From Verrucomicrobiota bacterium (GTDB taxonomy: Bacteria; Verrucomicrobiota; Verrucomicrobiia; Opitutales; UBA2995): a stretch of DNA of 33,132 bases. Both the position numbers and the translations under genes were made by a program. Below are positions 2,286 to 33,132 of this stretch, piece after piece. Under the pieces are notes generated by a model that saw nothing but the letters and a program-made list of their open reading frames with translations, made no database searches and was not told the origin of the DNA. The DNA is taken from NCBI GenBank assembly GCA_027622555.1, contig JAQBYJ010000064.1, forward strand, positions 1-33,132. Direction: 5' to 3'. The stretch's first letter is position 1. Every line of letters starts with the position of its first letter.

Positions 2286-2316
2286 TTGAGAATGGGGAAT
2301 AATAACTAGAGCTGTC

Positions 2317-3174: not shown

Positions 3175-3349
3175 AAGGTTTAGTTGGAGGAAATATTTTA
3201 AAAACAAATTTTAAGGGAAGCCGTTGTGTTCTGGTTTAATGCCCAAGGAGCCAGGCTTTGTCTAGTTCTTTGCTTCCACCAAATCACCTGTGAATAATTG
3301 AAATGCTGTGGCTCATCGGAATCCCCCAAAATAGTATTCCTCCCAGATG

Positions 3350-6131: not shown

Positions 6132-6219
6132 GGGAATGTTCTGTTGTTGATAGTGAAGGCTATGTGCTTTTGTTCTCTCAAACTGTTTCGCGTTGTTTAG
6201 CGTCTTTGGTAGTTTAAAT

Positions 6220-6774
6220 TCAATCCTCCAGTAATTCCTTGAGCCTTTCCAATATTGGCTGATCTGGTTTTGACGGCGCAAGGTCTCCTAACTGTTTTAT
6301 TATATAATGAAAATCCAGCTGTCCCGCTTGTCTAAACAGAATTCCTTCAATATCGCTCCAATCCCGGGGTCGATTGGCGAAGGCCTTCAGCACTACCAGA
6401 TCTTCCGCTGAACAAATTCTCAATGAGTAACCGGCAAAAGAAATATCCTTCGCCCTGGAAGTAACGGCTTCCTCGAAGGACATCGCTCCTAGTGCCAGGT
6501 CAACGGGAATTCCACTTTGTGTCTGAAGCAGAAGCACGCGACTCTGTAAGGCAAAGTCCCGGGCATCCGAAAATCGAGGTGAAATCAGGGATAGCAATTC
6601 ATCCACCACCTTTTCTTCATTACCCAAATCTGCCAGGACGGTCACATCAATGTCTTGGGTAAGTCGAGGCTCCCCCCAATGCAAGTTTGCCAATCCACCG
6701 ATGAAGCAGAAAGGTAGTCCCGCTTGCTCGAGGGAATCCTGTACTTCCCGGGCGGCAGTAATCAAATCGTCCAT
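6220..6774 (-). CDS. AbiEii-like minimal nucleotidyltransferase
   Basis: 184 residues from ATG 6774 (the frame is open further upstream, without family resemblance). FCFIGGLANLHWGEPRLTQD followed by IDVTVL gives the nucleotidyltransferase core: a GG motif, then Asp-x-Asp at the active site, with a further Asp in IPVDLALG. AEDLVVLKAFANRPRDWSD and IEGI match the C-terminal part of AbiEii-type toxins and related proteins. These enzymes transfer nucleotides to RNA or protein and often act as toxins with a small partner. The small gene immediately upstream (6785-7018) is probably that partner. Catalytic residues appear complete. Its 3' end is 89 bp before the M20 gene start. Confidence 0.75.
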   Translation of the reverse strand: MDDLITAAREVQDSLEQAGLPFCFIGGLANLHWGEPRLTQDIDVTVLADLGNEEKVVDELLSLISPRFSDARDFALQSRVLLLQTQSGIPVDLALGAMSFEEAVTSRAKDISFAGYSLRICSAEDLVVLKAFANRPRDWSDIEGILFRQAGQLDFHYIIKQLGDLAPSKPDQPILERLKELLED

Positions 6775-6784
6775 ACCGCCAGAA

Positions 6785-7018
6785 CTAAGGCTTGATTTCC
6801 CGTAAGGCGGCAAAGCAGGCTTGCTGCTCGACCAGTCCCGTGTGACGACGCTTGGTTCCCGCTTTTTTGGCCACTTTCCAGGACAGACGAAAACGCTCAA
6901 TCACTTCGGAGGTTTCTAGCAATGGAAGCTTGCGCCGCCGCTCCTCCTTCAACCGTTCTTCCACGCTTTCCCAGTTGGTTCTTTCTGCAAACAAGCTATG
7001 AGGCGCACGATTTTTCAC
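6785..7018 (-). CDS. small partner protein of the nucleotidyltransferase (possible antitoxin)
   Basis: 77 residues, charged and helical, with SLFAERTNWESVEERLKEER then RRKLPLLETSEVIERF. It ends 10 bp before the nucleotidyltransferase start. Small proteins of this kind often stand directly before such enzymes and are taken as antitoxin or partner. The TNWESVEERLKEE segment looks conserved; no catalytic motif was seen. The assignment rests on gene order and on recalled similarity, so the role is inference. Confidence 0.55.
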   Translation of the reverse strand: MKNRAPHSLFAERTNWESVEERLKEERRRKLPLLETSEVIERFRLSWKVAKKAGTKRRHTGLVEQQACFAALREIKP

Positions 7019-16969: not shown

Positions 16970-18117
16970 TTTCACAATCTCCATTACCAGGAAGCAAAGT
17001 AGTCATAGATGCTGGAGGATTGGCGGAAGTTCTAAAAAACTTAACAGGTTATGGCTATACACTGATTGGACCGAAAGTTGAAGATTCGGCTATTGTTTAT
17101 AGCGAGATCCAATCCCTGGAGGAGCTCCCTCAGGGTTGGATGGACGAACAGGGTCCCGGATTCTACCGGATTAAAAAAACAGACGATCGACATTACTTTA
17201 ACTATACTGTCGGACCCACATCATGGAAAAAATATCTCCATGCACCCCAGCAACGCCTTTGGCAGGCAGAGAGACAGGGAACCAGTTTTCGAGTGATTCC
17301 CGAAAAAGCATCTGATACTTCTTACGCTTTCATTGGTGTCCGGCCCTGCGAAATTAAGGCGATTGAAATCCAGGACCGTGTCTTCAGAGGCGATCATTAT
17401 ACCGATCCTCATTACGATCAAGCGCGTCGCAAGTCCTTCATTTTCGCTGTCAATTGCGGCAGGGCCAACAGCACCTGTTTCTGCACCTCTATGGATTCCG
17501 GCCCTCGGGCAAAGAATGGTTTCGACTTGGCCTTAACTGAATTTTTCATGGATGACCGGCATCTATTTCTTATAGAAGTTGGCTCAGACAAAGGCAGCAT
17601 GATCCTCGAAGGTATTGCGCCCGAGGAAGCAGATGCCCAAGTGCTTGCAACATGCCAAAAACAGACCGAAGAAACCGCGGCTCAAATAACTCGGCGGTTA
17701 AACACGGATGGTTTGCGGGAAGCTCTCGTCGATAATCCAGAGCACCCGCGATGGGCGGAGGTGGCAGATCGCTGTCTTTCCTGCGCCAATTGCACAATGG
17801 CATGCCCCACTTGCTTTTGCACCACTGTGGAGGATACTTCCGATCTGACGGGTGATCATGCTGAACGCTGGCAGCGATGGGATTCCTGTTTCACCATGGA
17901 CTTTTCCTATATCGCGGGAGGCAACATCCGCAGCTCAACTAAATCCAGGTACCGTCAATGGCTGACTCATAAGTTATCTACCTGGTATAATCAATTTGGC
18001 TCCAGCGGCTGCGTCGGTTGCGGACGATGTATCACCTGGTGCCCGGTCGGCATTGATATCACCGAGGAGGCAGCCGCGATTCAGACCAATCCTTTATCTC
18101 ATGAACCAATCGAATAG
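16966..18117 (+). CDS. hydB: NAD(P)-linked NiFe (sulf)hydrogenase, beta subunit (Fe-S protein)
   Basis: 383 residues from the ATG overlapping the ppdK stop. It is an iron-sulfur electron-transfer subunit of group 3b hydrogenases, related to anaerobic sulfite reductase subunit A. Cysteine clusters seen: CGRANSTCFC (about 164-173), CLSCANCTMACPTCFC (about 270-285) and CVGCGRCITWCP (about 349-359), enough for two [4Fe-4S] clusters plus the extra family Cys. It should pass electrons between the small subunit and the flavin gamma subunit. The gene order beta, gamma, delta, alpha equals hydBGDA of Pyrococcus furiosus sulfhydrogenase, except for one gene inserted after hydB. Confidence 0.9.
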   Translation: MISQSPLPGSKVVIDAGGLAEVLKNLTGYGYTLIGPKVEDSAIVYSEIQSLEELPQGWMDEQGPGFYRIKKTDDRHYFNYTVGPTSWKKYLHAPQQRLWQAERQGTSFRVIPEKASDTSYAFIGVRPCEIKAIEIQDRVFRGDHYTDPHYDQARRKSFIFAVNCGRANSTCFCTSMDSGPRAKNGFDLALTEFFMDDRHLFLIEVGSDKGSMILEGIAPEEADAQVLATCQKQTEETAAQITRRLNTDGLREALVDNPEHPRWAEVADRCLSCANCTMACPTCFCTTVEDTSDLTGDHAERWQRWDSCFTMDFSYIAGGNIRSSTKSRYRQWLTHKLSTWYNQFGSSGCVGCGRCITWCPVGIDITEEAAAIQTNPLSHEPIE

Positions 18118-18595
18118 TATGGAAACTTTGAAAACCATCTTGTCAGAACAAACCGTGTTCAAAGACCTTAAACCCGAATTCCTCCACTGGTTATGTAACT
18201 GCGCAGGTGAGGAGGCATTTGAAGCTGGCAAGTTTATTTTTAAAGGCGGTGAGTCAGCTGAAAATTTTTATCTCATTAAATCGGGTAAAGTTGTCGTACA
18301 GGTCTATGCACCTCCAAAAGGTGCTCTTAATATTATGACTCTGGAAAATTATGACATCCTGGGATGGTCATGGCTTTACTCACCCTACACCTATAATTTC
18401 GACGCAAAGGCGGTTACCGGTACTCAGGCTTTTGTATTCGATGCCGTCAAAGTCCGAAACAAATGCAGTGAGAATTATGAATTTGGATACCATTTCATGA
18501 ATTGTTTCAGTCAAATCATGTTAAGACGCCTGGTTGCTACGAGACTGCAACTTCTGGATATTTTTGGACCCGATACTGCAAGCTCGAAATTATAG
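18101..18595 (+). CDS. cyclic nucleotide-binding domain protein in the hydrogenase operon
   Basis: About 164 residues. ATG 18101 overlaps hydB by 17 bases; an ATG at 18119, one base after the hydB stop, is equally possible. The protein is a single cNMP-binding beta-roll: FKDLKPEFLHWL, then FEAGKFIFKGGESAENFYLI followed by KSGKVVVQVYAP. It ends after the C-helix (LVATRLQLLDIF) with no helix-turn-helix, so it is not a CRP/FNR regulator. The phosphate-binding cassette GE(L)AL of classic cAMP sites is not evident: after NIMTLENYDILGWSWLYSPY the usual R is replaced. It may sense another ligand or act as a structural subunit. Its place between hydB and hydG implies a direct role at the complex. Confidence 0.8.
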   Translation: MNQSNSMETLKTILSEQTVFKDLKPEFLHWLCNCAGEEAFEAGKFIFKGGESAENFYLIKSGKVVVQVYAPPKGALNIMTLENYDILGWSWLYSPYTYNFDAKAVTGTQAFVFDAVKVRNKCSENYEFGYHFMNCFSQIMLRRLVATRLQLLDIFGPDTASSKL

Positions 18596-18604
18596 ATAAT
18601 TCCC

Positions 18605-19471
18605 ATGCCTGAACCAGCCGAGAGAGTTGAAACGATGACCGCCCCCATGGTTCCTACACCTTGGGTTGTTCGCGATGTTATCTCCGAAACAGCCGATACT
18701 TTCACTCTCGAACTTGAGCCGGAAACACCTGCCAATTTTCCAGATGGTTTCCACTTCCTTCCTGGTCAGTTTAATATGATGTATGTTTTTGGAATTGGCG
18801 AGGTTCCCATTTCCATTTGCAGCGATCCCAAAGTTAAAAACCGGATCAAGCATACCATAAGAAGGGTTGGAACCGTAACCAGGATCATGGAAAATTTGGA
18901 AATAGGTGATACGGTGGGCATACGAGGTCCCTATGGTATTGCTTGGCCTATAGACAAAGCTCGAGGAAAAGACGTCCTTCTTATAGCCGGAGGAATTGGT
19001 TTGGCTCCAATAAGACCGGCCATGTACCACCTCCTTCATCATCGGAAAAAATATAATCGAGTTTCACTATGCTATGGAGCCCGCACACAGGAGGATATAC
19101 TTTATCGTAGTCAACTTGAGTACTGGAGCAGTCGTCTAGACCTCGAGATATTTGTGACTCTGGATAGAGACTCACCCTCCTGGCATGGAAGTATCGGTGT
19201 AGTTACCCAACTGATTCAGCGAGTTCCGGCAGATCCGAACAACTCAATTGTCATGATCTGTGGCCCTGAAATCATGATGAAGTATTGCCTGCCAGAACTG
19301 CACGATCGGAGGATTTCAAATGAACAGATCTACGTATCCCTTGAGCGGAATATGAAATGCGCGATTGGTCACTGTGGTCATTGTCAATACGGGCCAGAAT
19401 TTGTCTGTAAGTCGGGACCGGTATTCCAGATGAATCAGGTAGCGCGATTAATGAATATTGAGGAGCTATGA
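18605..19471 (+). CDS. hydG: NAD(P)-linked NiFe (sulf)hydrogenase, gamma subunit (FAD/NAD(P)H reductase)
   Basis: 288 residues; an internal start at 18635 is possible. [20 protein letters not shown] and ISICSD form the ferredoxin-reductase-like FAD domain. [19 protein letters not shown] and [12 protein letters not shown] form the NAD(P)-binding part. [11 protein letters not shown] continues the fold. The C-terminus has a [2Fe-2S] motif, [17 protein letters not shown]. This is the diaphorase-type subunit that exchanges electrons with NAD(P)H. Its stop overlaps the start of the small subunit by four bases (ATGA). Confidence 0.92.
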
Positions 19472-20250
19472 AAACGACACGCATAAAACCAAAACTCGCC
19501 GTTTGGAAATTTGCTTCATGCGATGGTTGTCAGTTGAGCCTCCTCGATTGTGAAGACGAATTATTGGCTGTAGCAGGTGAAGTAGAAATCGCAAACTTTC
19601 CGGAAGCATCCCGGGCAATCGTTGAGGGACCTTACGATGTTTCGCTGGTCGAAGGCTCCATTACAACCCCTCACGACCTGGAAAGAATTCAACAGGTCCG
19701 GAGAGACTCTGGTGTCCTTATAACCATCGGAGCCTGCGCTACCGCCGGTGGAATCCAGGCGCTCCGAAACTTTAAAAATATTAAGGATTTTATTTCCCTA
19801 GTGTATGCGCGTCCAGAATACATTGATACACTTGATAAATCGACCCCTATCTCCGATCATGTTCATGTCGATTTTGAACTGCGTGGTTGTCCAATAAGCA
19901 AAGCCCAATTACTCGAGGTCCTGAATGCATTCCTAAACAATCGCAAGCCGGTCATTCCAAAACATAGTGTTTGCGTTGAGTGTAAGCTTCGCGGGACTCC
20001 CTGTGTTATGGTAGCCCAGGGTATCCCTTGCCTTGGACCGGTTACTCAAGCCGGATGTGGTGCCATTTGCCCAGCCTATGACCGTGGCTGCTACGGTTGC
20101 TTCGGACCCCAGGAAACAACGAACACAGCCTCCTTAAGCGAACACTGGAAAAAAGGCCTGAACGTTCCGTCTGACCGCCTGATGAGAACGTTTCGAAGTT
20201 TCAACGCCTGGGCGGAACCCTTTAAAGACGAAAGTAACAAACATGAGTGA
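19468..20250 (+). CDS. hydD: NiFe hydrogenase, small (delta) subunit
   Basis: 260 residues without a Tat signal, so it is cytoplasmic. [18 protein letters not shown] carries the first cysteines of the proximal cluster, then GACATAGG and [12 protein letters not shown]. Eight further Cys lie in [29 protein letters not shown] and GCYGCFG, fitting the three [4Fe-4S] clusters of group 3 hydrogenases. It links the NiFe site to the beta subunit. It overlaps hydG by 4 and the large subunit by 8 bases. Confidence 0.93.
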
Positions 20251-21583
20251 CGATCAGAATGCTTCTTCCGAATCCGGTAAGAGAACCATCAAGGTTAACT
20301 ATATGGCTCGCGTTGAAGGCGAAGGGGGGCTGGATATCAAAATACGCAACAATGTTGTTGAGGACGTAAAACTTCACATCTTCGAACCTCCACGATTTTA
20401 CGAAGCATTTTTAAGGGAAAGGGAATATACCGAAGCGCCAGACATTACAGCTCGTATTTGTGGCATATGCCCAATTGCCTACCAAATGAGTTCTATCCAT
20501 GCGATGGAGAACGCCTTGGGAGTTAAAATAGAGGGTCAACTGCGCGAACTGCGTCGCCTCATTTACTGTGGAGAATGGATTGAGAGCCACGTGCTGCATG
20601 CTTACATGCTGCATGCGCCCGATTTCCTCGGATATCAAGATGCAATCGGCATGGCCAAGGATTTCCCGGATGTCGTTAAGAAAGGCTTACAGCTTAAAAA
20701 AACCGGTAACGAGATCGTGAGTCTTCTAGGAGGTCGTGAGATCCACCCTATCAACGTGAAGGTTGGCGGATTCTACAAGCTGCCTGCAAAGCAGGACCTA
20801 TTGGAATTAGCTGAAAAACTGAGAAAAGCCAAAGACCTGGCTGGTGAAATGGTTGAGTTTACCTCCACGCTTGAGTTTCCGCACTTTGAGCAGGATTACG
20901 AATATGTCAGCCTGAGGCATCCCACAGAATACCCTTTTAATGAAGGTCGAATTGTTTCCAACAAGGGACTCGATATCGACATTGCCAGTTTCAGTGAGTT
21001 TGTAACTGAAGAACATGTTGAACATTCCACTTCACTGCATGCCTATCTTAAAGAGCGCGGAGCGTATCATGTAGGTCCATTGGCGAGATACAATCTCAAC
21101 TTCGATCGATTGTCACCCGCAGCCCAGGCTTTAGCTGAATCAGCCGGACTGGAACCAACCTGTTTTAATCCTTTTAAGAGCATCATTATCCGAAGCGTAG
21201 AAACCTTCTGGGCTGTTGAGGAAGCACTACGCATAATTGAACAGTACGAGAAGCCGGATAAACCGGCTGTTCCTCTGGAGGTGAAAGCAGGTGTCGGACA
21301 TGGTTGCACAGAAGCTCCTCGCGGGATTCTGTATCATCGGTACGAAATAGACAATATCGGCCTGATTAAAGATGCCGTTATTGTGCCACCCACCTCTCAA
21401 AATCAAAAAATGATCGAAGCCGATTTATGGAAATTTGCCGAACAGTATATCAACCTAAATGACGAGGACTTGAAGTGGAAATGCGAACAGGCCGTCCGTA
21501 ATTACGATCCCTGTATATCTTGCTCCTGTCATTTCCTGAAACTTCGAATTGATAGAGACGGGGAAGTCAGCGAAATCAAATAA
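20243..21583 (+). CDS. hydA: NiFe hydrogenase, large (alpha) subunit
   Basis: 446 residues. It binds the NiFe(CN)2CO site through the N-terminal motif [17 protein letters not shown] (L1) and the C-terminal motif DPCISCSCH (L2). After the last His comes a 16-residue tail ([16 protein letters not shown]) that should be removed by a maturation protease; such a protease is encoded next. The L1 sequence and operon partners point to group 3b, the NADP-linked bidirectional sulfhydrogenases; exact subgroup assignment would need a tree. It may oxidise H2, evolve it as an electron sink, or reduce S0/polysulfide. Confidence 0.95.
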
Positions 21584-21587
21584 GGAT

Positions 21588-22061
21588 ATGATGGATACAA
21601 ATGCAGTATGTGTGGTCGGGATTGGAAATCCGGATTGTGGAGACGACAGTGCTGGTCCGGAAGTTATTGATCTATTGAAGGATCTCGGTGCAAAAGGTGC
21701 AATTACCCTGAAGGCCAGTGGTGAAACTGCAGGCTTGATCGAAATCCTATCAGCTAACCCTTGCGTGATCTTGATAGATGCCATTGCTGTAGCCAGAGAA
21801 CCCGGAGCCATCCACCGCTTTGATGCAACGTATGATTCGCTACCCGCGGACCTCTTTACAAATTACTCCACCCATAGTATGGGTGTGCACGAAGCAATCG
21901 AAATGGCGAGGGTTCTGGGAGAGCTCTCAAATAAAGTAATTGTTTACGGCATTGAAGGTTTAAATTTCCAGCCTGGGGATTCCATGAGTCCCGCGGTCAA
22001 AACAAACCTGATAGAACTCACTAATCTCGTCGCCAAAGAAATCACCGAATTAATCCACTAA
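21588..22061 (+). CDS. hydrogenase maturation endopeptidase (HycI/HoxW type)
   Basis: 157 residues; the start is ATG 21588 or 21591, behind the TAAGGA at 21581-21586 (the second gives better spacing). VVGIGNPDCGDDSAGPEVID is the family opening with a metal-binding Asp. ILIDAIAV and STHSMGVHEAI carry the other Asp and His ligands. It should cleave the C-terminal tail of the large subunit after nickel insertion. It follows hydA by only 4 bases, which fits. Confidence 0.92.
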   Translation: MMDTNAVCVVGIGNPDCGDDSAGPEVIDLLKDLGAKGAITLKASGETAGLIEILSANPCVILIDAIAVAREPGAIHRFDATYDSLPADLFTNYSTHSMGVHEAIEMARVLGELSNKVIVYGIEGLNFQPGDSMSPAVKTNLIELTNLVAKEITELIH

Positions 22062-22073
22062 AATAGAATCACC

Positions 22074-22340
22074 ATGCATGAGCACTCTTTATTGAATGAT
22101 TTATTGAGGAAAATTGAACAGGTTGTCCTCGAACAGAACGCCGCACGAGCGACCAAAGTGACTATAAAACTGGGAGCATTCTCCCACATTTCACCAGACC
22201 ATTTCCGTGAACACTTTGATCAGGCCAAACCGGGAACGGTGGCTGAGACAGCTGAACTCGAAGTTTATGCTTCAGATGATCAATCGGATCCGATGGCCCA
22301 AGAAATGATCCTGGAAAGTCTGGAAGTTGAACAGAATTGA
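22074..22340 (+). CDS. hypA: HypA-like nickel chaperone without the zinc finger
   Basis: 88 residues starting MHEHSLLNDLLRKIE; the MHE start with His2/Glu3 is the nickel site of HypA. KVTIKLGAFSHISPDHF matches the next conserved part. Normal HypA (about 113 residues) has four Cys forming a zinc site; this protein has no Cys at all and ends at LESLEVEQN. No zinc-finger coding frame is found downstream, where hypF begins 14 bases before this stop. The short zinc-less form is therefore probably native. Its partner HypB is absent from the window. Confidence 0.85.
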   Translation: MHEHSLLNDLLRKIEQVVLEQNAARATKVTIKLGAFSHISPDHFREHFDQAKPGTVAETAELEVYASDDQSDPMAQEMILESLEVEQN

Positions 22341-24609
22341 ACAGCTCGATATCCCAGTAACGACCGAAATTCGCGTTAGAATTTCCCTTCACGGTATGAT
22401 TCAAGGCGTGGGATTTCGCCCGCTTGTTTTCCAACTGGCAAAACGGATGCAACTTAATGGTTGGGTTTCTAACAGTTCGGAAGGAGTTACGATTGAACTG
22501 GAAGGAATTAAGAAATCGATAGACAAATTTCTCAGGCAACTTGAACATGAACTCCCGCCCTATGCTTCCATTCAAGGACGAAACATTGCGCTGATAGAAA
22601 CCTGGGGGGAAAAAGAATTCGCGATAAAAGAAAGCACAAACACTGGCGAAACTGCCCCACACATCCTTCCCGATATCGCAGTATGCCACGAGTGTCTGGA
22701 GGAAATGTTCGATCCCCTAAACCGGCGCTTCGCTTATCCGTTTATAAACTGCACGCATTGCGGACCTCGTTTCAGTATTGTCCAATCTCTCCCGTATGAC
22801 CGAGCCAACACCACCATGGCTGGTTTTGAAATGTGCGAGGAATGCCGTGCCGAATACGAAGATCCGACCGATCGGAGATTTCATGCCCAACCCATAGCCT
22901 GTCCAAATTGTGGGCCACAGATCGAATTTCGCCACTTATCGGAATCTTCTTCTACCTTCATTGGGAAGAAGGCAATGGAATCAGCCATTCATTCACTCAA
23001 ATCAGGAAAAATCCTGGCATTAAAGGGATTGGGAGGTTTTCAGCTTTTAGTTGACGCCACAAACACTGCGGCAGTTCAACGACTCAGAGAACGAAAACAA
23101 CGCGGCAATAAACCATTTGCCGTGATGTTTCCTGACATCGAAAGTGCACGTGAAACTGTCAAAATCTCCGATCCTGAGGAAAAGCTAATTAAGTCGCCGG
23201 AAGCCCCCATTGTTCTCGTAGAAAAACAGAACAATAAGTTTGATTCGGCTTCACCTAAAAACCCCTACCTCGGTGTTTTTCTACCTTATTCCCCCCTTCA
23301 CCACCAATTGCTTAAACAATTTAATAATCCTCTGATTGCAACGAGTGGGAACTTGGCCAATGAACCGATATGTATTCATAACGAGGAAGCGTTCCTACGT
23401 TTGAAATCTATTGCAGATGTATTCCTGGTACACGACAGACCTATTCAACGGCCTGTAGATGATTCGGTTGTGCGTATGGTTGGAGGTGACATTCAAGTAA
23501 TTCGACGAGCTCGGGGATACGCACCCTACCCTATTCAAATGAGCCAACACGTGCCTCCCACTCTCGCTGTTGGTGGTCATTTGAAGAACACCATTGCCAT
23601 AGGTAAAGGGCATCAAATCGTCCTCAGCCAACATATAGGTAATCTGGATACCATGGAATCTGTCTCGGCATTTGATTCTACCATTTCCGACTTCAGGACA
23701 CTCTATGACCTCCAGGCTGAAGCTGTGGTTGCGGATAAACATCCTGATTATGTTTCAACCCGGTTTGCAGAAGAACAAAAATCAGAACACAATGTGCACA
23801 TTCAACATCATCTGGCTCACGTATTCAGCTGTATGGCCGAACATGGATTAAAACCGCCGCTTACTGGAATTGCCTGGGACGGCACTGGCTATGGTGATGA
23901 CGGAACCATCTGGGGCGCGGAATCGTTTAAATTAACCGAGCAGACAAGCCGGAGATTCGCATCGATCTATCCTTTTCAACTTCCGGGAGGTGAATCCGCC
24001 ATCCATGAACCGGAGCGAATCGCCATTAGCCTACTTCATTCGGCAGGTCAGCAAATTCCACAAACCAAGAAAACGAACCTGCTCCTAGAATTGAATGAAA
24101 AAGGCATCAATTCCCCATACTGTTCCAGCATCGGTAGGCTATTCGATGGAATTTCCGCCATAATCGGACTATGCAGGGAGATAAATTATGAGGCCGAGGC
24201 TGCCATGCTACTTGAGTTTGAAGCTATGCAATCGGATACTCACGACCACTACGATTTTCCCGCACACAAATCCGATGGCTCCAATCTGACCGTCTTTGAT
24301 TGGCGTCCCATGATTGGTCAAATAGCTGAGGATTTAAGAACCCAGGAACCTACTACCCATATCGCTCGAAAATTCCACAATACCCTGACCGAAGCCATCC
24401 TGGAAATTGCCCGATTATCCAATGAGAACAAAGTCCTTTTAAGCGGGGGATGCTTTCAAAACAAGGTTCTCACGGAAATGACTATTCATAAATTGACCGA
24501 GGCAGGATTTAAGACCTACTCTCACCACCAAATACCATCCAATGACGGAGGCCTCGCTGCAGGCCAGGTATATGCTCAATTGTTCAAATCCAACCTGAAA
24601 TTAACCTGA
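22327..24609 (+). CDS. hypF: HypF carbamoyltransferase
   Basis: 760 residues from a TTG at 22327, overlapping hypA by 14 bases; the next in-frame ATG (about 22393) would cut the first strand. HypF makes the thiocarbamate that becomes the CN ligand. Domains in order: acylphosphatase (ISLHGMIQGVGFRPLVF, GWVSNSSEGV), two zinc fingers (CHECLEEMFDP...CTHCGP and CEECRAEYEDP...CPNCGP), YrdC/Sua5-like adenylation domain (RRARGYAPYPIQ region and the upstream KGLGGFQLLVDA) and the Kae1-like carbamoyltransferase domain (HHLAHVFSCMAEH, AWDGTGYGDDGTIWGAE). Full-length, no break. Confidence 0.95.
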   Translation: MNRIEQLDIPVTTEIRVRISLHGMIQGVGFRPLVFQLAKRMQLNGWVSNSSEGVTIELEGIKKSIDKFLRQLEHELPPYASIQGRNIALIETWGEKEFAIKESTNTGETAPHILPDIAVCHECLEEMFDPLNRRFAYPFINCTHCGPRFSIVQSLPYDRANTTMAGFEMCEECRAEYEDPTDRRFHAQPIACPNCGPQIEFRHLSESSSTFIGKKAMESAIHSLKSGKILALKGLGGFQLLVDATNTAAVQRLRERKQRGNKPFAVMFPDIESARETVKISDPEEKLIKSPEAPIVLVEKQNNKFDSASPKNPYLGVFLPYSPLHHQLLKQFNNPLIATSGNLANEPICIHNEEAFLRLKSIADVFLVHDRPIQRPVDDSVVRMVGGDIQVIRRARGYAPYPIQMSQHVPPTLAVGGHLKNTIAIGKGHQIVLSQHIGNLDTMESVSAFDSTISDFRTLYDLQAEAVVADKHPDYVSTRFAEEQKSEHNVHIQHHLAHVFSCMAEHGLKPPLTGIAWDGTGYGDDGTIWGAESFKLTEQTSRRFASIYPFQLPGGESAIHEPERIAISLLHSAGQQIPQTKKTNLLLELNEKGINSPYCSSIGRLFDGISAIIGLCREINYEAEAAMLLEFEAMQSDTHDHYDFPAHKSDGSNLTVFDWRPMIGQIAEDLRTQEPTTHIARKFHNTLTEAILEIARLSNENKVLLSGGCFQNKVLTEMTIHKLTEAGFKTYSHHQIPSNDGGLAAGQVYAQLFKSNLKLT

Positions 24610-24612
24610 CCT

Positions 24613-24873
24613 ATGTGCCTGGCGATTCCTGGAAAACTTGTTGAAGTCACCTCAGATGAGGAGTTGGCTCGTGAAGGCATTGTAGATTTCCAGGGAATAC
24701 GGAAAAAAATAAATATCACCTTCACCCCTGAAGCCCAACCAGGAGATTACGTACTGGTTCATGTGGGATTTTCTATAAGCAAGATTGACGAAACCGCAGC
24801 CCAACGAACGCTCGACACTTTGCGGGATCTTGGCGAACTGGATGAATTGAATGAGGAAAATAAAGCCGAATGA
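24613..24873 (+). CDS. hypC: HypC chaperone
   Basis: 86 residues beginning [12 protein letters not shown], the invariant HypC start whose Cys2 holds the Fe(CN)2CO moiety. [17 protein letters not shown] is the second conserved strand. It works with HypD and delivers iron to the large subunit. It starts 4 bases after the hypF stop and overlaps hypD by four (ATGA). Confidence 0.96.
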
Positions 24874-25961
24874 AGTACCTGGATGAATTCAGAGAGGCTC
24901 CGGCTGTTCATAAGCTTGCAGCGCGTATCCACAATCTGACCACCAATAATTGGACGCTTATGGAGGTTTGCGGAGGGCAGACTCATTCCCTCATTCGTTA
25001 TGGAATTGACACGCTGCTTCCCGACAAGATTTCCCTTATTCACGGCCCGGGTTGCCCGGTATGTGTAACGCCCATCGAACAAATTGATAAGGCCATAGAG
25101 CTTTCACAAAAAACGAATATTATCTTTTGCTCCTTTGGCGATATGCTGCGCGTTCCCGGATCCGAAAAGGACTTGTTTTACGCTAAAGCGAATGGAGGCG
25201 ATATCCGGATTGTCTACTCACCGATGGACGCAGTTGGTATTGCTCAAAAGAATCCTGAAAAGGAGGTGATCTTCTTTGCCGTTGGGTTTGAAACGACTGC
25301 TCCTGCCAATGCCATGGCCGTTTATCAGGCAGCAAAATTGGGACTGAAGAATTTTTCTATTCTCTGTTCACACGTATTGGTACCACCAGCCATGGAAGCC
25401 ATTCTTTCCTCACCCGAAAACCGGGTACAGGGATTTTTGGCTGCAGGACATGTTTGTACCATTATGGGAGAAAAGGAGTACGAGCCCATTGCAGATAAAT
25501 ACAAGGTTCCCATCGTGGTGACTGGATTTGAACCACTGGATCTAATGCAAGGGATTTATTACTGTGTAAAACAATTGGAGGAAGGCCGTCACGAAGTGGA
25601 AAACCAATACGACCGCTCCGTTCGCGTTGAAGGAAACCTTCCTGCGAAACAAATGATCGCGAAGGTATTTCATGTCATACCCAGGCAATGGCGTGGTATT
25701 GGTTCAATCCCGCACAGCGGATTGGGTATTCGTCCGGAATTCTCCTCCTTTGATGCCGAAGCGCGTTTTGATTTCAGACAACCAATGGTCTGTGAAAATC
25801 CCGAATGTATCGCCGGGAAAGTCTTGCAAGGTATCAAGAAACCCAAAGATTGTCCGGCATTCGGAACTCGCTGCACACCCGATCATCCCCTGGGAGCCCC
25901 CATGGTTTCAACCGAAGGTGCTTGTTCGGCCTACTACAACCACCGATCCCGTCACGCATGA
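24870..25961 (+). CDS. hypD: HypD, Fe-CN/CO assembly protein
   Basis: 363 residues. [17 protein letters not shown] and [12 protein letters not shown] hold the redox-active cysteines, and [16 protein letters not shown] follows. The C-terminal [4Fe-4S] Cys set is [29 protein letters not shown] and GACSAYY. HypD is the scaffold on which iron receives CN and CO. ATGA overlap with hypE at 25958-25961. Confidence 0.96.
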
Positions 25962-27022
25962 ACGTCGAAGGCAAATCTCCGGCATTTCCAACAAGTTGTC
26001 CCTTTCCATTTGAGGATTATCCGCAAGTGGTCCTGGCACATGGAGGTGGAGGAAAACTGACTCAGGATTTGGTAGAAAAAATATTTCTTGAAGCTTTTGG
26101 GAATCCTATATCCCGGGAACTACTGGACGGTGCTATTTTGAAGAATCCAGGTCAAACGCTGGTCATGTCTACCGACTCGCATGTTGTCTCACCCTTGTTT
26201 TTTCCAGGGGGCGACATTGGTTCTCTCTCCGTCTACGGAACCACCAATGATATTTCCATGTGCGGAGCTCGTCCCTTATTTTTAACGGCAGGCTTCATAC
26301 TGGAAGAAGGTTTTTCCATGAATGCGCTCTGGAAAATTGTGCAGTCCATGAAACAGGCGGCAGAACAAGTAGGAGTTCAAATTGTAGCGGGTGACACAAA
26401 AGTTGTTGAAAAAGGAAAAGGAGACGGGGTTTACATAAACACAACGGGCCTGGGCTTTCGTGACTCTTCGCTGTCAATTGGACCCAGTCTAATAGAAAAA
26501 GACGATGTCGTTCTCGTGAGCGGTGATATCGGACGCCACGGAATAACTATCATGGCCTCACGAGAAGGATTAGAGTTTGAAACCGAACTTATCAGCGATT
26601 GTGGACCGCTTTCAGCCATGGTAGACACACTCCTGGACTCAGGCATCCCCGTCCATTGTATGCGAGACCTGACCCGAGGCGGACTTGCTACAGCGATCCT
26701 GGAAATCAGTAAACAAGCCAACATCGACGTAATTCTGGAGGAAGATGCAATACCTGTTGATCCTGCCGTGAAAGGCGCGTGCGAAATCCTTGGACTGGAT
26801 CCGCTCTATGTAGCAAATGAAGGTTGCTTTGCCGTTTTCTTACCAGCTTCCTACAGCGAAAAAGCCCTGGATATCTTGCAGTCCTTTCCGAGTGGAAAAA
26901 ACGCCAAATGTATCGGACGAGTCGTTTCATCCGGACATTCAAATGTATCGCTTAAAACTGGACTTGGCACCCACCGATACCTGACCATGTTGAGTGGTGA
27001 GCAACTTCCTCGCATTTGCTAA
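25958..27022 (+). CDS. hypE: HypE, cyanide-forming dehydratase
   Basis: 354 residues from the ATG overlapping the hypD stop (a spurious open extension starts at 25805). [19 protein letters not shown] is the family opening. The AIR-synthase-like ATP-binding domain shows [27 protein letters not shown] and [11 protein letters not shown]. The protein ends LPRIC: the terminal Cys is the residue carbamoylated by HypF and dehydrated to thiocyanate. Intact. Confidence 0.96.
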
Positions 27023-27031
27023 AAAACAGAA

Positions 27032-27853
27032 ATGGCAACAGTACCGAAAAAAGAGTCCATTACTCAAAGCACCATCGTACGTATAGACGATACCGGTACG
27101 GTTACAACGGAACATGATAAAATTGCGGTGGAAGAACCGTTGGAGATTCGTTTAGGAAATAATCCCTTCGTTGTAACCATGCGAACCCCGGGTCATGACG
27201 ATGAGTTAGCCGCAGGGTTCTTTGTGACGGAAGGAATTGTCAGGCAACGATCGGACATAAAAGAAATCAGTCGCTGCCCTACTTCACTCACACCGGAAAA
27301 TACGGTGAGAATCGATCTGAAAGGTGGAAATAAAGCGGAAGGTCTAAAGTCCAATCGTGTAGGTGCCATTTCTGCGAGCTGCGGCGTTTGCGGAAAGACT
27401 TCTATCGAATCAGTTCAAGGTCATTTCCCTTCGATTCAAAGCAAGATAACGATTGAAAGAAATTTACTGCTCCAACTGCCGGATCGTTTAAGAGCATCAC
27501 AAGATGTTTTTGATAAAACCGGGGGTCTTCACTCTGCCGGAATTTTTGATTTGGAAGGAAACCTGGTATGCCTGCGCGAAGATGTCGGACGCCACAACGC
27601 TCTCGATAAGGTCATCGGTTACGCATTTCTCAACAACCTTCTGCCACTGGACAAGCACGTGTTGGTGGTCAGTGGAAGAGTTGCTTTTGAAATTATGCAA
27701 AAAGCACTGGCCGCCCAATTGGCAATCGTTGCTGCCATTTCCGCTCCATCGTCTCTGGCCGTTACTTTCGCCCTCCATAGTGGGCAAACGCTAGTCGGCT
27801 TTCTGCGCAAACCAAGGTTTAACGTTTATTCGCACCCGCATAGAATCAGGTGA
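27032..27853 (+). CDS. fdhD: FdhD, sulfurtransferase for formate dehydrogenase
   Basis: 273 residues, nine bases after hypE. Features: TPGHDDELAAGFFVTEGIV, the catalytic CGVC motif (Cys117 and Cys120) in SASCGVCGKTSIESV, and GGLHSAGIF, EDVGRHNALDKVIGY, VVSGRVAFEIMQKA. FdhD passes sulfur from IscS to the molybdenum cofactor of formate dehydrogenase. No formate dehydrogenase or Mo-cofactor gene is in the window, so its target is elsewhere or it serves another Mo/W enzyme. It is the last gene of the plus-strand operon; the convergent gene ends two bases away. Confidence 0.93.
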   Translation: MATVPKKESITQSTIVRIDDTGTVTTEHDKIAVEEPLEIRLGNNPFVVTMRTPGHDDELAAGFFVTEGIVRQRSDIKEISRCPTSLTPENTVRIDLKGGNKAEGLKSNRVGAISASCGVCGKTSIESVQGHFPSIQSKITIERNLLLQLPDRLRASQDVFDKTGGLHSAGIFDLEGNLVCLREDVGRHNALDKVIGYAFLNNLLPLDKHVLVVSGRVAFEIMQKALAAQLAIVAAISAPSSLAVTFALHSGQTLVGFLRKPRFNVYSHPHRIR

Positions 27854-27854
27854 T

Positions 27855-28556
27855 CTAGACTTCCGCCACTGTGCGAGAAATTGCGGAAGCCAAATGTGCA
27901 CCCATGGTTTCAATGGATTTCCTATCCTCCAAGAGGTCTGAACAGACTTCTATTTCAATCCCAAGATATTGGTTGTTTGCAAAATGTGTTCTCAAAACTG
28001 TGGTAAGCCCGTCATCCGTTCCCGCATAAGGAACGTTCTCCTTTATACGCAGGCGATCCCCCAAGTCCTTTTGCAAATGCGCGCAGAGAGATGTTGCAAA
28101 TCGAGATTCTTTTGATCGGTCAGGATCGTACAAAACTCCGATATCAACTTGTCTTTCCTTATTATTAAACATGCGAACAAAGGAATGGATCGAAAGATGT
28201 AACACGCAGTCCGACTCGTTGATCGCATCACTGATGTTTTCAAATAACTCTGCCCAATAGGGCTCGAAAACCTTTTCTTCCAATTCCTTTTGCTGACTTT
28301 CGGTTAAGGACCTTGAGTATTCGCTCCACCTGTCTGGATTGCCGATCGACCTGTTCAAATCGAGAAGTAGCCGGGTCCACTCTCCACGCACAAGCGGAGC
28401 ATCGAAAAAATCCTTTAGTTCCTGGGCCAGCCTGAATGCACCTGGATCCCATCCACGGTGAGACCAAAGAATTGTTTGATCCTTTTCAGCAAATAGGCGC
28501 TCAAAACCCTCGAGTAGCGCAGCACTCGCGTGTTCACAACTCAAGACGATTTTCAT
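27855..28556 (-). CDS. N-formylglutamate amidohydrolase-like enzyme
   Basis: 233 residues. SCEHASAALLEGFERLF, SHRGWDPGAFRLA, WTRLLLDLNRS, and VLHLSIHSFVR are the family motifs with likely metal His/Asp/Glu ligands (CEH, SHRGWD). Classic members deformylate N-formylglutamate in the histidine pathway, but no hut gene is here. It overlaps the GCS2 ligase gene by 4 bases and forms the 3' end of the cassette, so it probably hydrolyses an amide made by the two ligases. Its stop is one base from that of fdhD. Confidence 0.85.
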   Translation of the reverse strand: MKIVLSCEHASAALLEGFERLFAEKDQTILWSHRGWDPGAFRLAQELKDFFDAPLVRGEWTRLLLDLNRSIGNPDRWSEYSRSLTESQQKELEEKVFEPYWAELFENISDAINESDCVLHLSIHSFVRMFNNKERQVDIGVLYDPDRSKESRFATSLCAHLQKDLGDRLRIKENVPYAGTDDGLTTVLRTHFANNQYLGIEIEVCSDLLEDRKSIETMGAHLASAISRTVAEV

Positions 28557-29761
28557 GGCATGAACGGTTGATTCATCAACAAAGAGTTCCGCAAACGCTG
28601 ATAAACAGCGAAGATAGACTCCGCATTTACGGTTGGGCCTATGGCTTTCAAAATGCGTTCGGCCAAATTACCTTCATCGAGTATCATAAGAATCGGTCCG
28701 GTCCATTCCTGGTTTTCTGGAACCAGGTTTTTAAGTGTCTCGCCAATTTTCCTGGAATTGCCACCACCGTATACCTGAAATAAAGCTTCATCATCTACCT
28801 CTGCGTAGCGGCCACGTTTTATTGCGTCATTGAACATAGTTCTCAGCGCTTCCGTGGACACTGACTCCTGGTCCTCCAACGAAACATGCTTATTTTCGTA
28901 CCAATCCCTGACAAGGCTAATGATCATTTGAATGACCGCCAGGTCTTGACTTGGACATTCCTGAGCATCGCCCACGCGAATCTCAATAGAACCACGGTCG
29001 AATCGCCCAATTGCACCACGAGCGTTCGTCCATTCCGGTTCCAGGATGCCTTCAGGATCCAATAGTTCCAGATCGCGACGAATGACATCAAACACCTTTT
29101 CCTGATACTCTTCCTGGGAACGATAGACATCGGGAATCACACCGCCCGTGATACTCGGAACTCTTAAACAATTTTTTCTATACATATCCAACCGACTATC
29201 CAGGAGGCCGTATTTTCTCCCCTCCACCAAGGGTGAGCTGGAGGCAAGGACCGGAACGAGCGGAAGGACCAGGCGAATCGCACTGTGCAAACGCCTGAAA
29301 CTCTCATCGTCGCCTACTTCGAATGGCAGGTTCAAATGAAACGATTGAAGGTTGGACCACCCGTGACCCCGGCTATCAAATATCCGGTCAAATGTATCGT
29401 AAATTTCCCGATCTCCATGGGGCCAAATATTAACGCCATCAAATGGCTCAAACCAGGGATGAATGGCTGTTCCCAACAACCCTCCACCTGCCTTCTTCAA
29501 AAGTTTATCGGCGAGCAACATCGACTCATGGAATTGACCTGAAAGCCCTTCGAGCTGTTTTACCGGTAGACTGGTCTTAAATTCCAGGACATGCATCACC
29601 AACTCATTCGACCAGGTAATAGGTCCATGACTTAGACTGTTAACAATATTCCCATCCGAGTCACGTAACACCGTATCTGAAAGGGACCGTAGATCCAGAC
29701 TCTCCCGGTCCACGATCATGGTCTCGATTTCGATACCGTATTGACTAAATGCTTGAGCCAT
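28553..29761 (-). CDS. GCS2-family carboxylate-amine ligase
   Basis: 402 residues. YGIEIETMIVDRESLDLR is the ligand-binding opening of GCS2/YbdK-type gamma-glutamate-cysteine ligase-like enzymes. LLGTAIHPWFEP, RIFDSRGHGWSNLQSFHLNL and RGSIEIRVGDAQECPSQD carry the catalytic acidic and basic residues. These enzymes join a carboxylate to an amine with ATP. The substrate cannot be read from sequence. In this operon a RimK-like ligase precedes it by 14 bp and an amidohydrolase overlaps it, which argues for a shared small-molecule or peptide pathway rather than glutathione synthesis. Confidence 0.85.
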   Translation of the reverse strand: MAQAFSQYGIEIETMIVDRESLDLRSLSDTVLRDSDGNIVNSLSHGPITWSNELVMHVLEFKTSLPVKQLEGLSGQFHESMLLADKLLKKAGGGLLGTAIHPWFEPFDGVNIWPHGDREIYDTFDRIFDSRGHGWSNLQSFHLNLPFEVGDDESFRRLHSAIRLVLPLVPVLASSSPLVEGRKYGLLDSRLDMYRKNCLRVPSITGGVIPDVYRSQEEYQEKVFDVIRRDLELLDPEGILEPEWTNARGAIGRFDRGSIEIRVGDAQECPSQDLAVIQMIISLVRDWYENKHVSLEDQESVSTEALRTMFNDAIKRGRYAEVDDEALFQVYGGGNSRKIGETLKNLVPENQEWTGPILMILDEGNLAERILKAIGPTVNAESIFAVYQRLRNSLLMNQPFMP

Positions 29762-29775
29762 AAAATTCTCTTTCG

Positions 29776-31245
29776 TTAAACGGGATTAACACCGGTCCGC
29801 CCTTCAACGCGCTTAATAAAAGACCGGATGATGCAATCGTATAATTCGTCTTTTATTACGGCATCTTCCACACCGCTATCAATGGAAGGATTATCATTCA
29901 CCTCAATCACCAGCGCCTGTCCGTTAATTTCCTTCAGGTCTACTCCATACAGACCATCACCGATCAAATTCGCCGCACGAAGTGCGGTATCCAGGACAAA
30001 TGCCGGAACCTCTCCCAGCGGAAATGTATCCGCATTCCCGGCAACAATGCCTTTGGAACCTTCTCCCCGGTCATAGATTTGCCAGTGCCCACGCGCCATA
30101 AAATATCGGCAGGCGTAAATCGGCTTACGATCCAAAATCCCAATACGCCAGTCAAACTGAGTGGGTAAAAATTCCTGAGCGATCAACAGGTCAGTTTTTT
30201 CAAACAGTTCCTGGCAGGCTTTACGAAACCCTGCTTCATCATTTACTTTGACCACACCTAGTGAAAAGGAGGAGTCAGGCTGTTTAAGCACCAATGGAAA
30301 GGACATCCCTTTGGGAATCTCCGGATTGCTGGTAGTGTAAAGAATTTCTGTTTTGGGGGCAGAAATACCATTTCGATCAAAAAGTTCGGCCAGAAAAACC
30401 TTGTTGGTACACCGCAAAATAGAATCTGGATCGTCAATGGTTGGAATCCTTGCTTGAGTGGCGCGACGGGCAAACCTGAAAGTGAAATTTTCCACCGAGG
30501 TCGTGGCCCGGATGAATAAAGCATCCAACTCTTCAACATCGTCAATGTCATCCGGTTCCAGCATCTCGACAGCCAAATTATGGCGTTCTGCAGACTTCAA
30601 AAATTTCTTCAAAGCCATCGAGTCTGAAGGAGGAGTTGCCTCTTTGGGGTCCACTAAAATCCCAAGAGTAAATCGAGCTGGCACCTGTGCCTTGAGCCGC
30701 TTGGGGCGAGCAAACCATTGCTCTGCCGACTTCTGCACGAAGTCCATATGAGATTCGGGGATGTCTTTGGCAGAAATAAGGTTTACCGACCGCATCCTCC
30801 AGTCACCATCTTCTCCACGCCGGAAAACCGCCCTCATCAGAGGAGCGGGAAACAGTTTAAATACAGCCAGGGCCAGGCGGTCGTGCCGCTTGGCCAAGTT
30901 GCGTGAAAAGTAGACCGACAAAACGAACTCATCGTGTTGAATGTGTTCCAGGGATCGGTGAGCTGTTGCCTGGAATTCACGGGAGGGGTTTATCAGACGT
31001 CCGTGAACTTTCCTCAATGTGGAGACTAAGGGCAAGGGACGGTGACCGCGGGCTTCCGCCAGGAGAGACACATAATAACCGGCGCTTTGATAAGAGTAAT
31101 CCCGACAAAGATTATACACTCGTGCCCGTCGCAACTTCTGAATGGCCGGATCCGTTATATAACTCTTAGGCGTGAGTATTTCTACACCAGCAGGCAACTT
31201 CACCTTCCACGTAGAGGGTCTTTCAACTACAACTAAAGTTTTCAT
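29776..31245 (-). CDS. RimK-like ATP-grasp ligase with RLAN N-terminal domain
   Basis: 489 residues. The N-terminal ~180 residues (VVERPSTWKVKLPAGVEILT, RRARVYNLCRDYSYQSAGYY, VHGRLINPSREF) match the RLAN domain, found fused to RimK-like ligases. The ATP-grasp body runs from about 270: IDDPDSILRCTNKVFLAELF, PLVLKQPDSSFSLGVV, AQEFLPTQFDWRIGILD, and the Mg-binding end VDLKEINGQALVIEVNDNPS. It likely adds an amino acid or other amine to a carboxylate. RLAN ligases are known to be neighbours of GCS2 ligases and papain-like peptidases, as here. Its start is five bases from the upstream peptidase stop. Confidence 0.85.
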   Translation of the reverse strand: MKTLVVVERPSTWKVKLPAGVEILTPKSYITDPAIQKLRRARVYNLCRDYSYQSAGYYVSLLAEARGHRPLPLVSTLRKVHGRLINPSREFQATAHRSLEHIQHDEFVLSVYFSRNLAKRHDRLALAVFKLFPAPLMRAVFRRGEDGDWRMRSVNLISAKDIPESHMDFVQKSAEQWFARPKRLKAQVPARFTLGILVDPKEATPPSDSMALKKFLKSAERHNLAVEMLEPDDIDDVEELDALFIRATTSVENFTFRFARRATQARIPTIDDPDSILRCTNKVFLAELFDRNGISAPKTEILYTTSNPEIPKGMSFPLVLKQPDSSFSLGVVKVNDEAGFRKACQELFEKTDLLIAQEFLPTQFDWRIGILDRKPIYACRYFMARGHWQIYDRGEGSKGIVAGNADTFPLGEVPAFVLDTALRAANLIGDGLYGVDLKEINGQALVIEVNDNPSIDSGVEDAVIKDELYDCIIRSFIKRVEGRTGVNPV

Positions 31246-31250
31246 ACAAT

Positions 31251-31961
31251 TTATTTGTAGATAATTAAAATATTTGCATCATGCGTTAAAACGCCGAGCA
31301 GTATGGAATTGATCAATCGATCGATATGGACCGAGTAACGATGATCGACCGAGAGAGGAGCCTTGGGATAAGGATCATAGACAGTCACATGTCGTGATGC
31401 CGATTCATACCCATGGAGGACCACAAAATGGCCCTCAGGCTTTCCGCCCAAGTCATCGGGTTTGCCCGTTTCAGGAACTTCTCGGGCCTCATTGTAAAGG
31501 AATGTGGCCGACACTCCGGCCAATATTGGATGCCCATGTAGCAAGTGATTGCGAATCAATGCGCGGGTCAATGCTTCCATTTTCAAATTTCCACCTTTTA
31601 GGACATAGGATTCCAGCGCTTCCAATTCGAATCGCTCTTTTTTGCTCCGCCGGACTTTTCTGGACGCACTGAGCTTTTCAATCAAAGAAGCGGCGGTACC
31701 TGGAAACCAGGAAGGATCCAGTACACGCAGATTACAGCTATAGAAATCGGCACGGTAACCACGTTCCAGAGCATCGACACCCATATGAATGGCCAGGGTC
31801 CCCCCTTCCTGTAATACCGGTATATTCTGGATCAACTCCTCAAGTGGAACATCATTTCCATACCACCGGTAGATGGCGTGGAGACAGGTAGGTCCACAGG
31901 AAGTTTCAGTGGGCTGGCGCTCAATCCAAAAGGTAGCAGAACTCCTTGTTACCTTATTCAA
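31251..31961 (-). CDS. C39/papain-like cysteine peptidase of the ATP-grasp cassette
   Basis: 236 residues from a TTG at 31961. A TAG lies two codons upstream in frame, so a longer start is excluded and no in-frame ATG precedes the active site. ERQPTETSCGPTCLHAIYRW has the catalytic Cys22 after the oxyanion Gln; GHFVVLHGYE gives the His and YDPYP the Asp. The fold is that of bacteriocin-processing or papain-like peptidases, without membrane or ABC domains and without a signal peptide. In related neighbourhoods such a peptidase can be fused to an acetyltransferase; that part is absent. It is the first gene of the cassette and may process or ligate the peptide product. Confidence 0.78.
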   Translation of the reverse strand: MNKVTRSSATFWIERQPTETSCGPTCLHAIYRWYGNDVPLEELIQNIPVLQEGGTLAIHMGVDALERGYRADFYSCNLRVLDPSWFPGTAASLIEKLSASRKVRRSKKERFELEALESYVLKGGNLKMEALTRALIRNHLLHGHPILAGVSATFLYNEAREVPETGKPDDLGGKPEGHFVVLHGYESASRHVTVYDPYPKAPLSVDHRYSVHIDRLINSILLGVLTHDANILIIYK

Positions 31962-32207
31962 TTTCTATGAAATAAGCATTCCAGCAAGCCATCAAAAGCG
32001 ACTGGAAGAACGGCAGTAATAACAAATGCATCATACGAAAAAAATGAATCATGAGAGACAAATAATCCACTATTAATTATTTTCCTACGCATATCAACAT
32101 TCATTCCTTTCAAAAGAAAAATCAGTAAAGTCACTCAATTTACAGACTCAATTATTTTCATTCCTAAGAGCCGACCCGGGGACTAAAATGGATCGATTTA
32201 TGAACTG
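31962..32207. other. intergenic region upstream of the peptidase cassette
   Basis: 246 bp, AT-rich, between the sulfatase 3' end and the TTG start of the cassette. It must hold the cassette promoter, since all downstream gaps are 14 bp or less, but no clear -35/-10 pair could be fixed by eye. No repeat or RNA was seen. Confidence 0.4.
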
Positions 32208-33132
32208 CTAAAACAGCCACTTTCGGAATTCCTCGATTCCGAGAGCCGGTTCCTTTGCCTCAGCCATGAGCCGGGCAATCTCTTTGGTAAACCGCTCACG
32301 CACTTTCCGATAATCGAACTTCTCATAGAAATTGATCAATTCATCCGGATCCTTTTTCAGATCGAAGAGCCATGGTTTGTCTTTGTCAGAGATCACGAGT
32401 TTGTAACTATCGGAAACCGCAGCTACCCAACTGGGATGCATGGTTGTTCCCCGAATGTAGATGATTTCTTCATCCTGGATATTCATCTTTGAATTTTGGA
32501 AATGATCGGACAAATCCCTTCCTTGAGCTACAAAGCCATCGCCCTCAATGCCCATTAAAGAAAACAGGGTCGGACCAAAATCAACGGAGGTCATTGCCGA
32601 GTGGATTACCTTTCCGGCCGGCACTATCCCCGGTTGCTTCCACAAGAATGCGACTTTGGCTGAGGCTTCGAAGGGAATTCCTTTGTTGTGCTTCCGATGT
32701 TCTCCCATCAGGTCACCGTGATCGGAAGTGAAGACCACGATGGTGTTGTCCTCCAGATTCAAGCGTTTCAGCTCGTTCGCTAACCTTCCCATGTTGTCAT
32801 CTATGCATTCAACCATGCCAAAGTAGGCAGCCATCTGGCCCTGATTCAACTTCCTGTCCTTTATGTAATTATTACCCTGAAACGGGCTCCATCCTGGATT
32901 CTGTTCATCGGTTTTGAACATCGTCTTGGGTTCTTTAAAGGTCAGGTCTTTGTATTTGCTTGCATAGGGCTCACGCACTGTATTCGGGCCATGCGGATCC
33001 GGCAGACTCAACATCACACAAAACGGATTGTCTTTAGGGCACTTTGAATAATCAGTTTTTCTTTAGTTGAGACAAATAAAAGTTCTTGGTGGATTCGGAC
33101 ACACAGGATTAATACTGTAGATCCGACTGATT
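32208..33132 (-). pseudogene. sulfatase, C-terminal part, with a probable frameshift and cut by the window edge
   Basis: The long frame (from about 33017 to 32208) is the C-terminal part of an arylsulfatase/choline-sulfatase-like enzyme: MLSLPDPHGPNTVREPY, VECIDDNMGRLANEL, VVFTSDHGDLMGEHRKHNKG (metal Asp-His and Lys), GIEEFRKWLF at the end. In frame, FCVMLSLPDPHGP extends back to KTDYSKCPKDNP and then hits TAA near 33066. In another frame, VSESTKNFYLSQLKK leads exactly into KTDYSKCP if one base is added to the run of five T (33056-33060). The catalytic Cys-x-Pro-Ser-Arg site lies beyond the edge. The broken state may be a real pseudogene or a homopolymer error. Sulfatases desulfate algal or mucosal polysaccharides. 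Confidence 0.75.

Follow-up and report, generated by a model that had tools for sequence, protein, structure and literature searches.

Two ligases, a papain-like enzyme, and an amidohydrolase are encoded side by side on a contig of a Verrucomicrobiota bacterium, which raises the question of whether they act in one pathway and, if so, what that pathway might make. The window (the whole 33,132-nt stretch of DNA that was analyzed) is contig C64 of a 6.0-Mb genome. At positions 27855–31961, it carries four intact minus-strand genes, all of them full-length open reading frames (ORFs), separated by 5, 14, and −4 bases. Their products are a C39/papain-like cysteine peptidase or transpeptidase (31251–31961; 236 amino acids; Peptidase_C39_2, 44.8 bits, and Peptidase_C39), an RLAN-RimK ATP-grasp amide ligase (29776–31245; 489 amino acids; RLAN, PF14401, 135.6 bits, fused in one protein to RimK, PF08443, 28.5 bits), a GCS2 (glutamate-cysteine-ligase-2 family) carboxylate-amine ligase (28553–29761; 402 amino acids; PF04107, 59.4 bits), and an accessory FGase-family amidohydrolase (27855–28556; 233 amino acids; PF05013, 81.5 bits). 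All four Pfam family names are backed by scores over the gathering cutoff, and ORFs and Pfam agree with the initial annotation, which had described four adjoining genes with this spacing and these families. The nearest NCBI models (YbdK/glutamate-cysteine ligases, RimK, and LysX) scored far under their cutoffs; the proteins are therefore members of these families but none is a characterized member. The C39 gene starts with TTG and is without an in-frame ATG or GTG. A 48–amino acid ORF (31958–32104, minus strand) overlaps this start by 4 bases (TTGA); a comparison of small ORFs revealed no relative of it beside other cassette loci.

To map the cassette elsewhere, 84,980 species genomes were scanned with the RLAN protein as query, and profiles of the four proteins were applied to the best 80 loci. 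Among these, GCS2 lies beside RLAN in 45. A C39 gene is present in 44 of the 45 GCS2-bearing loci (in L038 it is on the other strand, just past FGase) and FGase in 31; contig ends cut 2 of the 14 loci from which FGase is absent. Since this is a single-protein scan of the best 80 loci, the share of the GCS2 cassette type among RLAN proteins is not a census. When loci from the same phylum and the window were added and one duplicate (L087 = L112) was removed, at least 54 distinct loci were found to pair a window-type RLAN with GCS2. They span at least seven phyla: Verrucomicrobiota, Planctomycetota, Bacteroidota, Pseudomonadota, Spirochaetota, Bdellovibrionota, and Myxococcota. The gene order of the window recurs in mapped loci of other phyla, and its recurrence in at least 54 distinct loci indicates that the genes are not chance neighbors. 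Many carrier loci come from metagenome-assembled genomes, where an individual placement could be a binning error; firmer placements are provided by Thioalkalivibrio sp. XN8, Planctomycetes bacterium Pla163, and the single-contig genomes G091 and G272. In distant phyla, genes of the GCS2 cassette type are thus found together rather than apart or with unrelated partners, as the initial annotation had expected of a single pathway.

A few loci deserve individual mention. In Legionella adelaidensis, a named strain, RLAN, GCS2, and FGase open a sequence record (L153:1-9073) whose edge truncates the RLAN gene and leaves the C39 side outside. This record is named “plasmid 27,” but its other genes, which include fur, bamE, and dapF, give it the appearance of a chromosomal fragment. 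In two spirochaete loci (L042 and L046), an opposite-strand gene, f28, is located between RLAN and GCS2; its product in L046 is secreted-looking and contains GKGKPDDAGPPE repeats.

Presence and absence within the window’s phylum define how tightly the four genes belong together. Of 289 genomes, about 36 have full-length RLAN, 12 have the C39 family, 10 have GCS2, and 6 have a member of the close FGase clade; more distant FGases occur in 7 others. These sets are nested in the order FGase, GCS2, C39, and RLAN. All 10 GCS2 genomes belong to the 12 C39 genomes, adjoining RLAN, and all 6 close-FGase genomes carry GCS2, with FGase adjoining in 5 and on another contig in 1 (G038). The probability of such nesting under independent draws is about 7e-17 for C39/GCS2 and 3e-10 for FGase, values that are optimistic owing to relatedness (the 10 GCS2 genomes represent eight genera). 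C39 occurs without GCS2 in G157, where it adjoins RLAN, and in G015, where it is on another contig. One RLAN relative (L127) has C39 but no GCS2, so the pathway either works without GCS2 or is in decay there. Pairwise distances are strongly correlated for C39-RLAN (0.93), C39-GCS2 (0.92), and RLAN-GCS2 (0.94) and more weakly for pairs with FGase (0.73 to 0.75; Mantel p 0.001 throughout), correlations that partly reflect the shared ancestry of the hosts.

Nesting and correlated distances together show that C39, RLAN, and GCS2 are passed on as one block, with FGase as a looser companion. The core of the cassette is thus C39-RLAN-GCS2, and FGase is a frequent accessory. The proposal of one pathway is supported by nested presence, adjacency, correlated evolution, and spread over phyla; that of a four-gene unit stands for three genes, while FGase is present in 31 of the 45 GCS2-bearing loci among the best 80 and in 6 of 10 carriers of the same phylum. 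It may be asked whether FGase is an unrelated neighbor and the unit is limited to the three-gene core. The 14 GCS2-bearing loci without FGase (even with two of them cut by contig ends) and the lower distance correlation (r about 0.74) are in line with this. However, GCS2 accompanies every FGase-clade member in the phylum (6 of 6, 5 adjoining), and FGase overlaps its neighbor by 4 bases in the window and is closely spaced elsewhere, which makes an unrelated neighbor improbable.

RLAN is also found in other settings. In a second type of locus, RLAN lies beside GNAT, which in some cases is fused to the C39-like DUF3335 (PF11814); DUF2817 is present in some of these loci and DUF155 in a few. In L133:5974-8040 and L134:5458-7470, GNAT, RLAN, and the RimK ATP-grasp are fused in a single ORF. 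The GNAT-DUF3335 fusion is described in PMC10318531, a paper citing Iyer et al. 2009. Profiles of GNAT and DUF3335 had no match in the window, and its C39 protein is a distant homolog of DUF3335 (hhalign probability of 96.8%). A common family for FGase and DUF2817 was also considered and dropped, as there was no significant profile match between them. Solitary RLAN genes occur in f20 genomes from the window’s phylum, a Pseudomonas aeruginosa plasmid record, and a phage-like contig. On the plasmid, pZYPA1927 (L151:4908-6497), a lone RLAN ligase is located between a pagP/SDR pair and an aminotransferase gene. The phage-like IMG/VR contig (L150:5998-7158) encodes a compact 386–amino acid RLAN-RimK ligase from which the RLAN domain is largely missing, with helicase-like and DHH-type phosphoesterase-like genes as neighbors. 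In the RLAN tree, most GNAT-type proteins are on one side of a well-supported split and the GCS2-type proteins are on the other. Some GNAT-type and solo proteins are nested within the GCS2-type side, indicating that partners were swapped more than once. The earlier statement that RLAN recurs beside GCS2 and a papain-like peptidase therefore describes the GCS2 cassette type but not the many RLAN proteins that have GNAT, DUF3335, DUF2817, or no partner.

Residues that are invariant in every sequence covering the site are present in the window’s C39 (Gln16, Cys22, His178, and Asp196), GCS2 (Glu11, Glu13, His142, and Arg253), and FGase (Glu8, His9, His120, His124, and Glu201) proteins. In RLAN, Lys282, Lys321, Asp436, Glu448, and Asn450 are invariant across 114 sequences, the window counted; judging from their families, these would be of the ATP/Mg type, and the roles of the other residues are likewise predicted. 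The RLAN protein consists of the RLAN domain (about residues 27 to 172) and an ATP-grasp unit (about residues 190 to 487). In its model (pLDDT 88), residues 190 to 487, which were used for the fold search, superpose on LysX, ArgX, and RimK with Z of 24 to 26. These three enzymes add an amino acid to a protein’s C-terminal carboxylate.

The C39 model (pLDDT 92) matches the leader peptidases PCAT1 and ComA (Z about 15; PCAT1, 15.5), the pseudomurein endoisopeptidase PeiR (Z 14.9), and the phytochelatin synthase Alr0975 with glutathione (Z 14.8). The fold matches to PCAT1, PeiR, and phytochelatin synthase are tied (14.8 to 15.5) and leave room for a protease and a transpeptidase alike; Pfam assigns the protein to C39 families. 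The protein has a papain fold with Gln-Cys-His-Asp, as in phytochelatin synthase–like transpeptidases. Phytochelatin synthase is a transpeptidase acting on glutathione, and since the fold is equally near to it, the C39 protein need not merely trim. It starts about a dozen residues ahead of the conserved domain, and no signal peptide is evident; with so short an N terminus, it should act in the cytosol together with the ligases. The GCS2 profile is nearest to YbdK and plant glutamate-cysteine ligase, and against the curated YbdK subfamily/GCL equivalog models, the best NCBIfam score was 41.9 at a cutoff of 176.4. In sequence identity, characterized GCS2 and phytochelatin synthase enzymes are too remote for their functions to be transferred.

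The genome of the window, being 95.8% complete and its absences therefore provisional, has no match to the glutathione synthetase domain GSH-S_ATP (GshB-type), and its GCS2 and its FGase are each the only one found. The lack of a GSH-S_ATP match and the single GCS2 indicate that the RLAN/GCS2 pair does not duplicate an existing route to glutathione. Urocanase was found in none of 10 carrier genomes (the window’s and nine others), while 5 of 14 controls were positive, which rules out FGase in these carriers as HutG, the N-formylglutamate deformylase of histidine degradation. No conserved precursor-peptide gene was detected in the 700 bases beyond either end of the cassette: among 204 small ORFs flanking cassettes, matches were limited to near relatives. 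The initial impression that no substrate peptide gene is visible is thus borne out over this distance. The shared neighbors include no conspicuous transporter family, no conserved partner beyond the four families adjoins the cassette, and no Rfam family was found in the window.

What is established here is the unity of the cassette, the families of its products, their conserved catalytic residues, and, for C39 and RLAN, the predicted fold. RLAN is nearest to LysX/ArgX/RimK, GCS2 is nearest to YbdK and plant glutamate-cysteine ligase, and the lack of urocanase in the 10 carriers removes a hut role for FGase. This leads us to favor, tentatively, a scheme in which GCS2 and RLAN may make a glutathione-like glutamyl peptide that C39 remodels and FGase deacylates. 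The four genes would then be one horizontally mobile, cytosolic, and self-contained biosynthetic unit. GCS2 would activate a carboxylate of glutamate, probably the γ one, and join it to an amine. RLAN-RimK would form an acyl-phosphate on a carboxylate of the resulting compound and add another amino acid in the manner of LysX/ArgX/RimK. The papain-like C39 would form an acyl-enzyme with this product, followed by hydrolysis or transfer to a second molecule, much as phytochelatin synthase acts on glutathione. FGase would strip an N-acyl group or cleave a glutamyl amide, thereby finishing or recycling the compound. Every substrate, the order of the steps, and the product are what we infer. A bolder proposal, and an unlikely one, is that the cassette makes cofactors of a widespread new class, glutamyl peptides analogous to glutathione and possibly oligomerized by C39. 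The GCS2/FGase and GNAT/DUF2817 operons would then be two variants of one chemistry that swap these modules around a common core of RLAN and C39.

The main rival is protein or peptide tagging, in which RLAN and GCS2 would attach amino acids to a conserved host protein and C39 and FGase would remove them; such a substrate would explain why no substrate gene is nearby. RimK and LysX act on protein C termini, GCS2 shares its fold class with the pupylation ligase PafA, pairs of ligase and peptidase are typical of tagging systems, PeiR, one of the closest C39 fold matches, is an endoisopeptidase, and a lone RLAN on a phage-like contig is what would be expected of a modifier of host proteins. We nevertheless consider tagging somewhat unlikely because the seven-phylum spread fits universal small substrates more easily and a dedicated FGase-family deacylase would be without an obvious role in it.

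Alternatively, C39 could cleave a ribosomal peptide whose gene is not linked to the cassette, and the ligases would modify it afterward, in the manner of RiPP (leader-type) pathways. The C39 domains of PCAT1 and ComA are indeed the top structural matches, and ATP-grasp ligases are known in RiPP pathways. However, no conserved short ORF adjoins the cassette and no transporter family is prominent among its shared neighbors, making this possibility highly doubtful. Just as doubtful is a catabolic unit in which scavenged glutamyl or N-acyl-glutamate compounds would be broken down by the hydrolases and the parts recycled by the ligases. It would agree with the FGase family name and with the frequent presence of FGase, but the near-constant core is the ligase pair plus C39, FGase is the dispensable gene, and the 10 carriers have no hut pathway.

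The favored glutamyl peptide scheme can be compared with known systems. Iyer et al. reportedly predicted, in 2009, amidoligase neighborhoods of RLAN/GNAT-papain and also the association of RLAN with GCS2 and papain. The cassette shares with their type an RLAN-RimK ligase with a papain-like peptidase; in that type, GNAT is fused to DUF3335, whereas the cassette has a stand-alone C39, GCS2, and usually FGase. FGase and the nested structure are added here to the 2009 prediction, turning a general prediction into a defined three-gene core plus an accessory gene, with named isolates. Glutathione synthesis together with phytochelatin synthase likewise combines two ligases, one of the GCS2 family and one of ATP-grasp type, with an enzyme of papain fold. 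However, its ATP-grasp is GshB while that of the cassette is of RimK/LysX type, and the cassette has an extra FGase, a C39 equally near to PCAT1/ComA, and no sign of using cysteine. With RimK and with LysX/ArgX, which work on the amino-group carrier protein, the RLAN protein has the ATP-grasp catalytic unit in common, but it adds an N-terminal RLAN domain, and no conserved neighbor of the carrier-protein type was seen. Pupylation (PafA/Dop) similarly pairs a ligase of the glutamine-synthetase/GCS fold with removal enzymes; in contrast, GCS2 is a separate family, and no Pup-like tag gene was found among the conserved cassette neighbors. Among the papers searched, none dealt with RLAN or with FGase alongside ATP-grasp. 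The Pseudomonas ATP-grasp gene PA1766 was weighed as a possible relative that had already been studied but was set aside, as a search on it gave no connection with RLAN; it presumably belongs to another ATP-grasp family. A compact set of amide-bond enzymes common to seven phyla points to a nameless metabolite or modification of broad use.

Other genes of the window deserve brief mention. NiFe hydrogenase-type genes with hypF, hypD, hypE, and fdhD (about 16903–27853, plus strand) converge on the cassette, the end of fdhD being one base from the FGase stop. A formate link was considered on account of this adjacency and set aside as coincidence, since, to the extent that family clustering reveals it, fdhD does not recur beside other cassettes. 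On the other side, a sulfatase ORF (32208–33017, minus strand) matches only profile positions 168 to 301, has an in-frame stop upstream, and lies 115 bases from the contig end; it is a truncated gene or a contig-edge effect. At 1752–3207 and 4825–6900 (minus strand), matches to copper amine oxidase and M20 peptidase fall in overlapping ORF pieces, which suggests frameshifts or pseudogenes.
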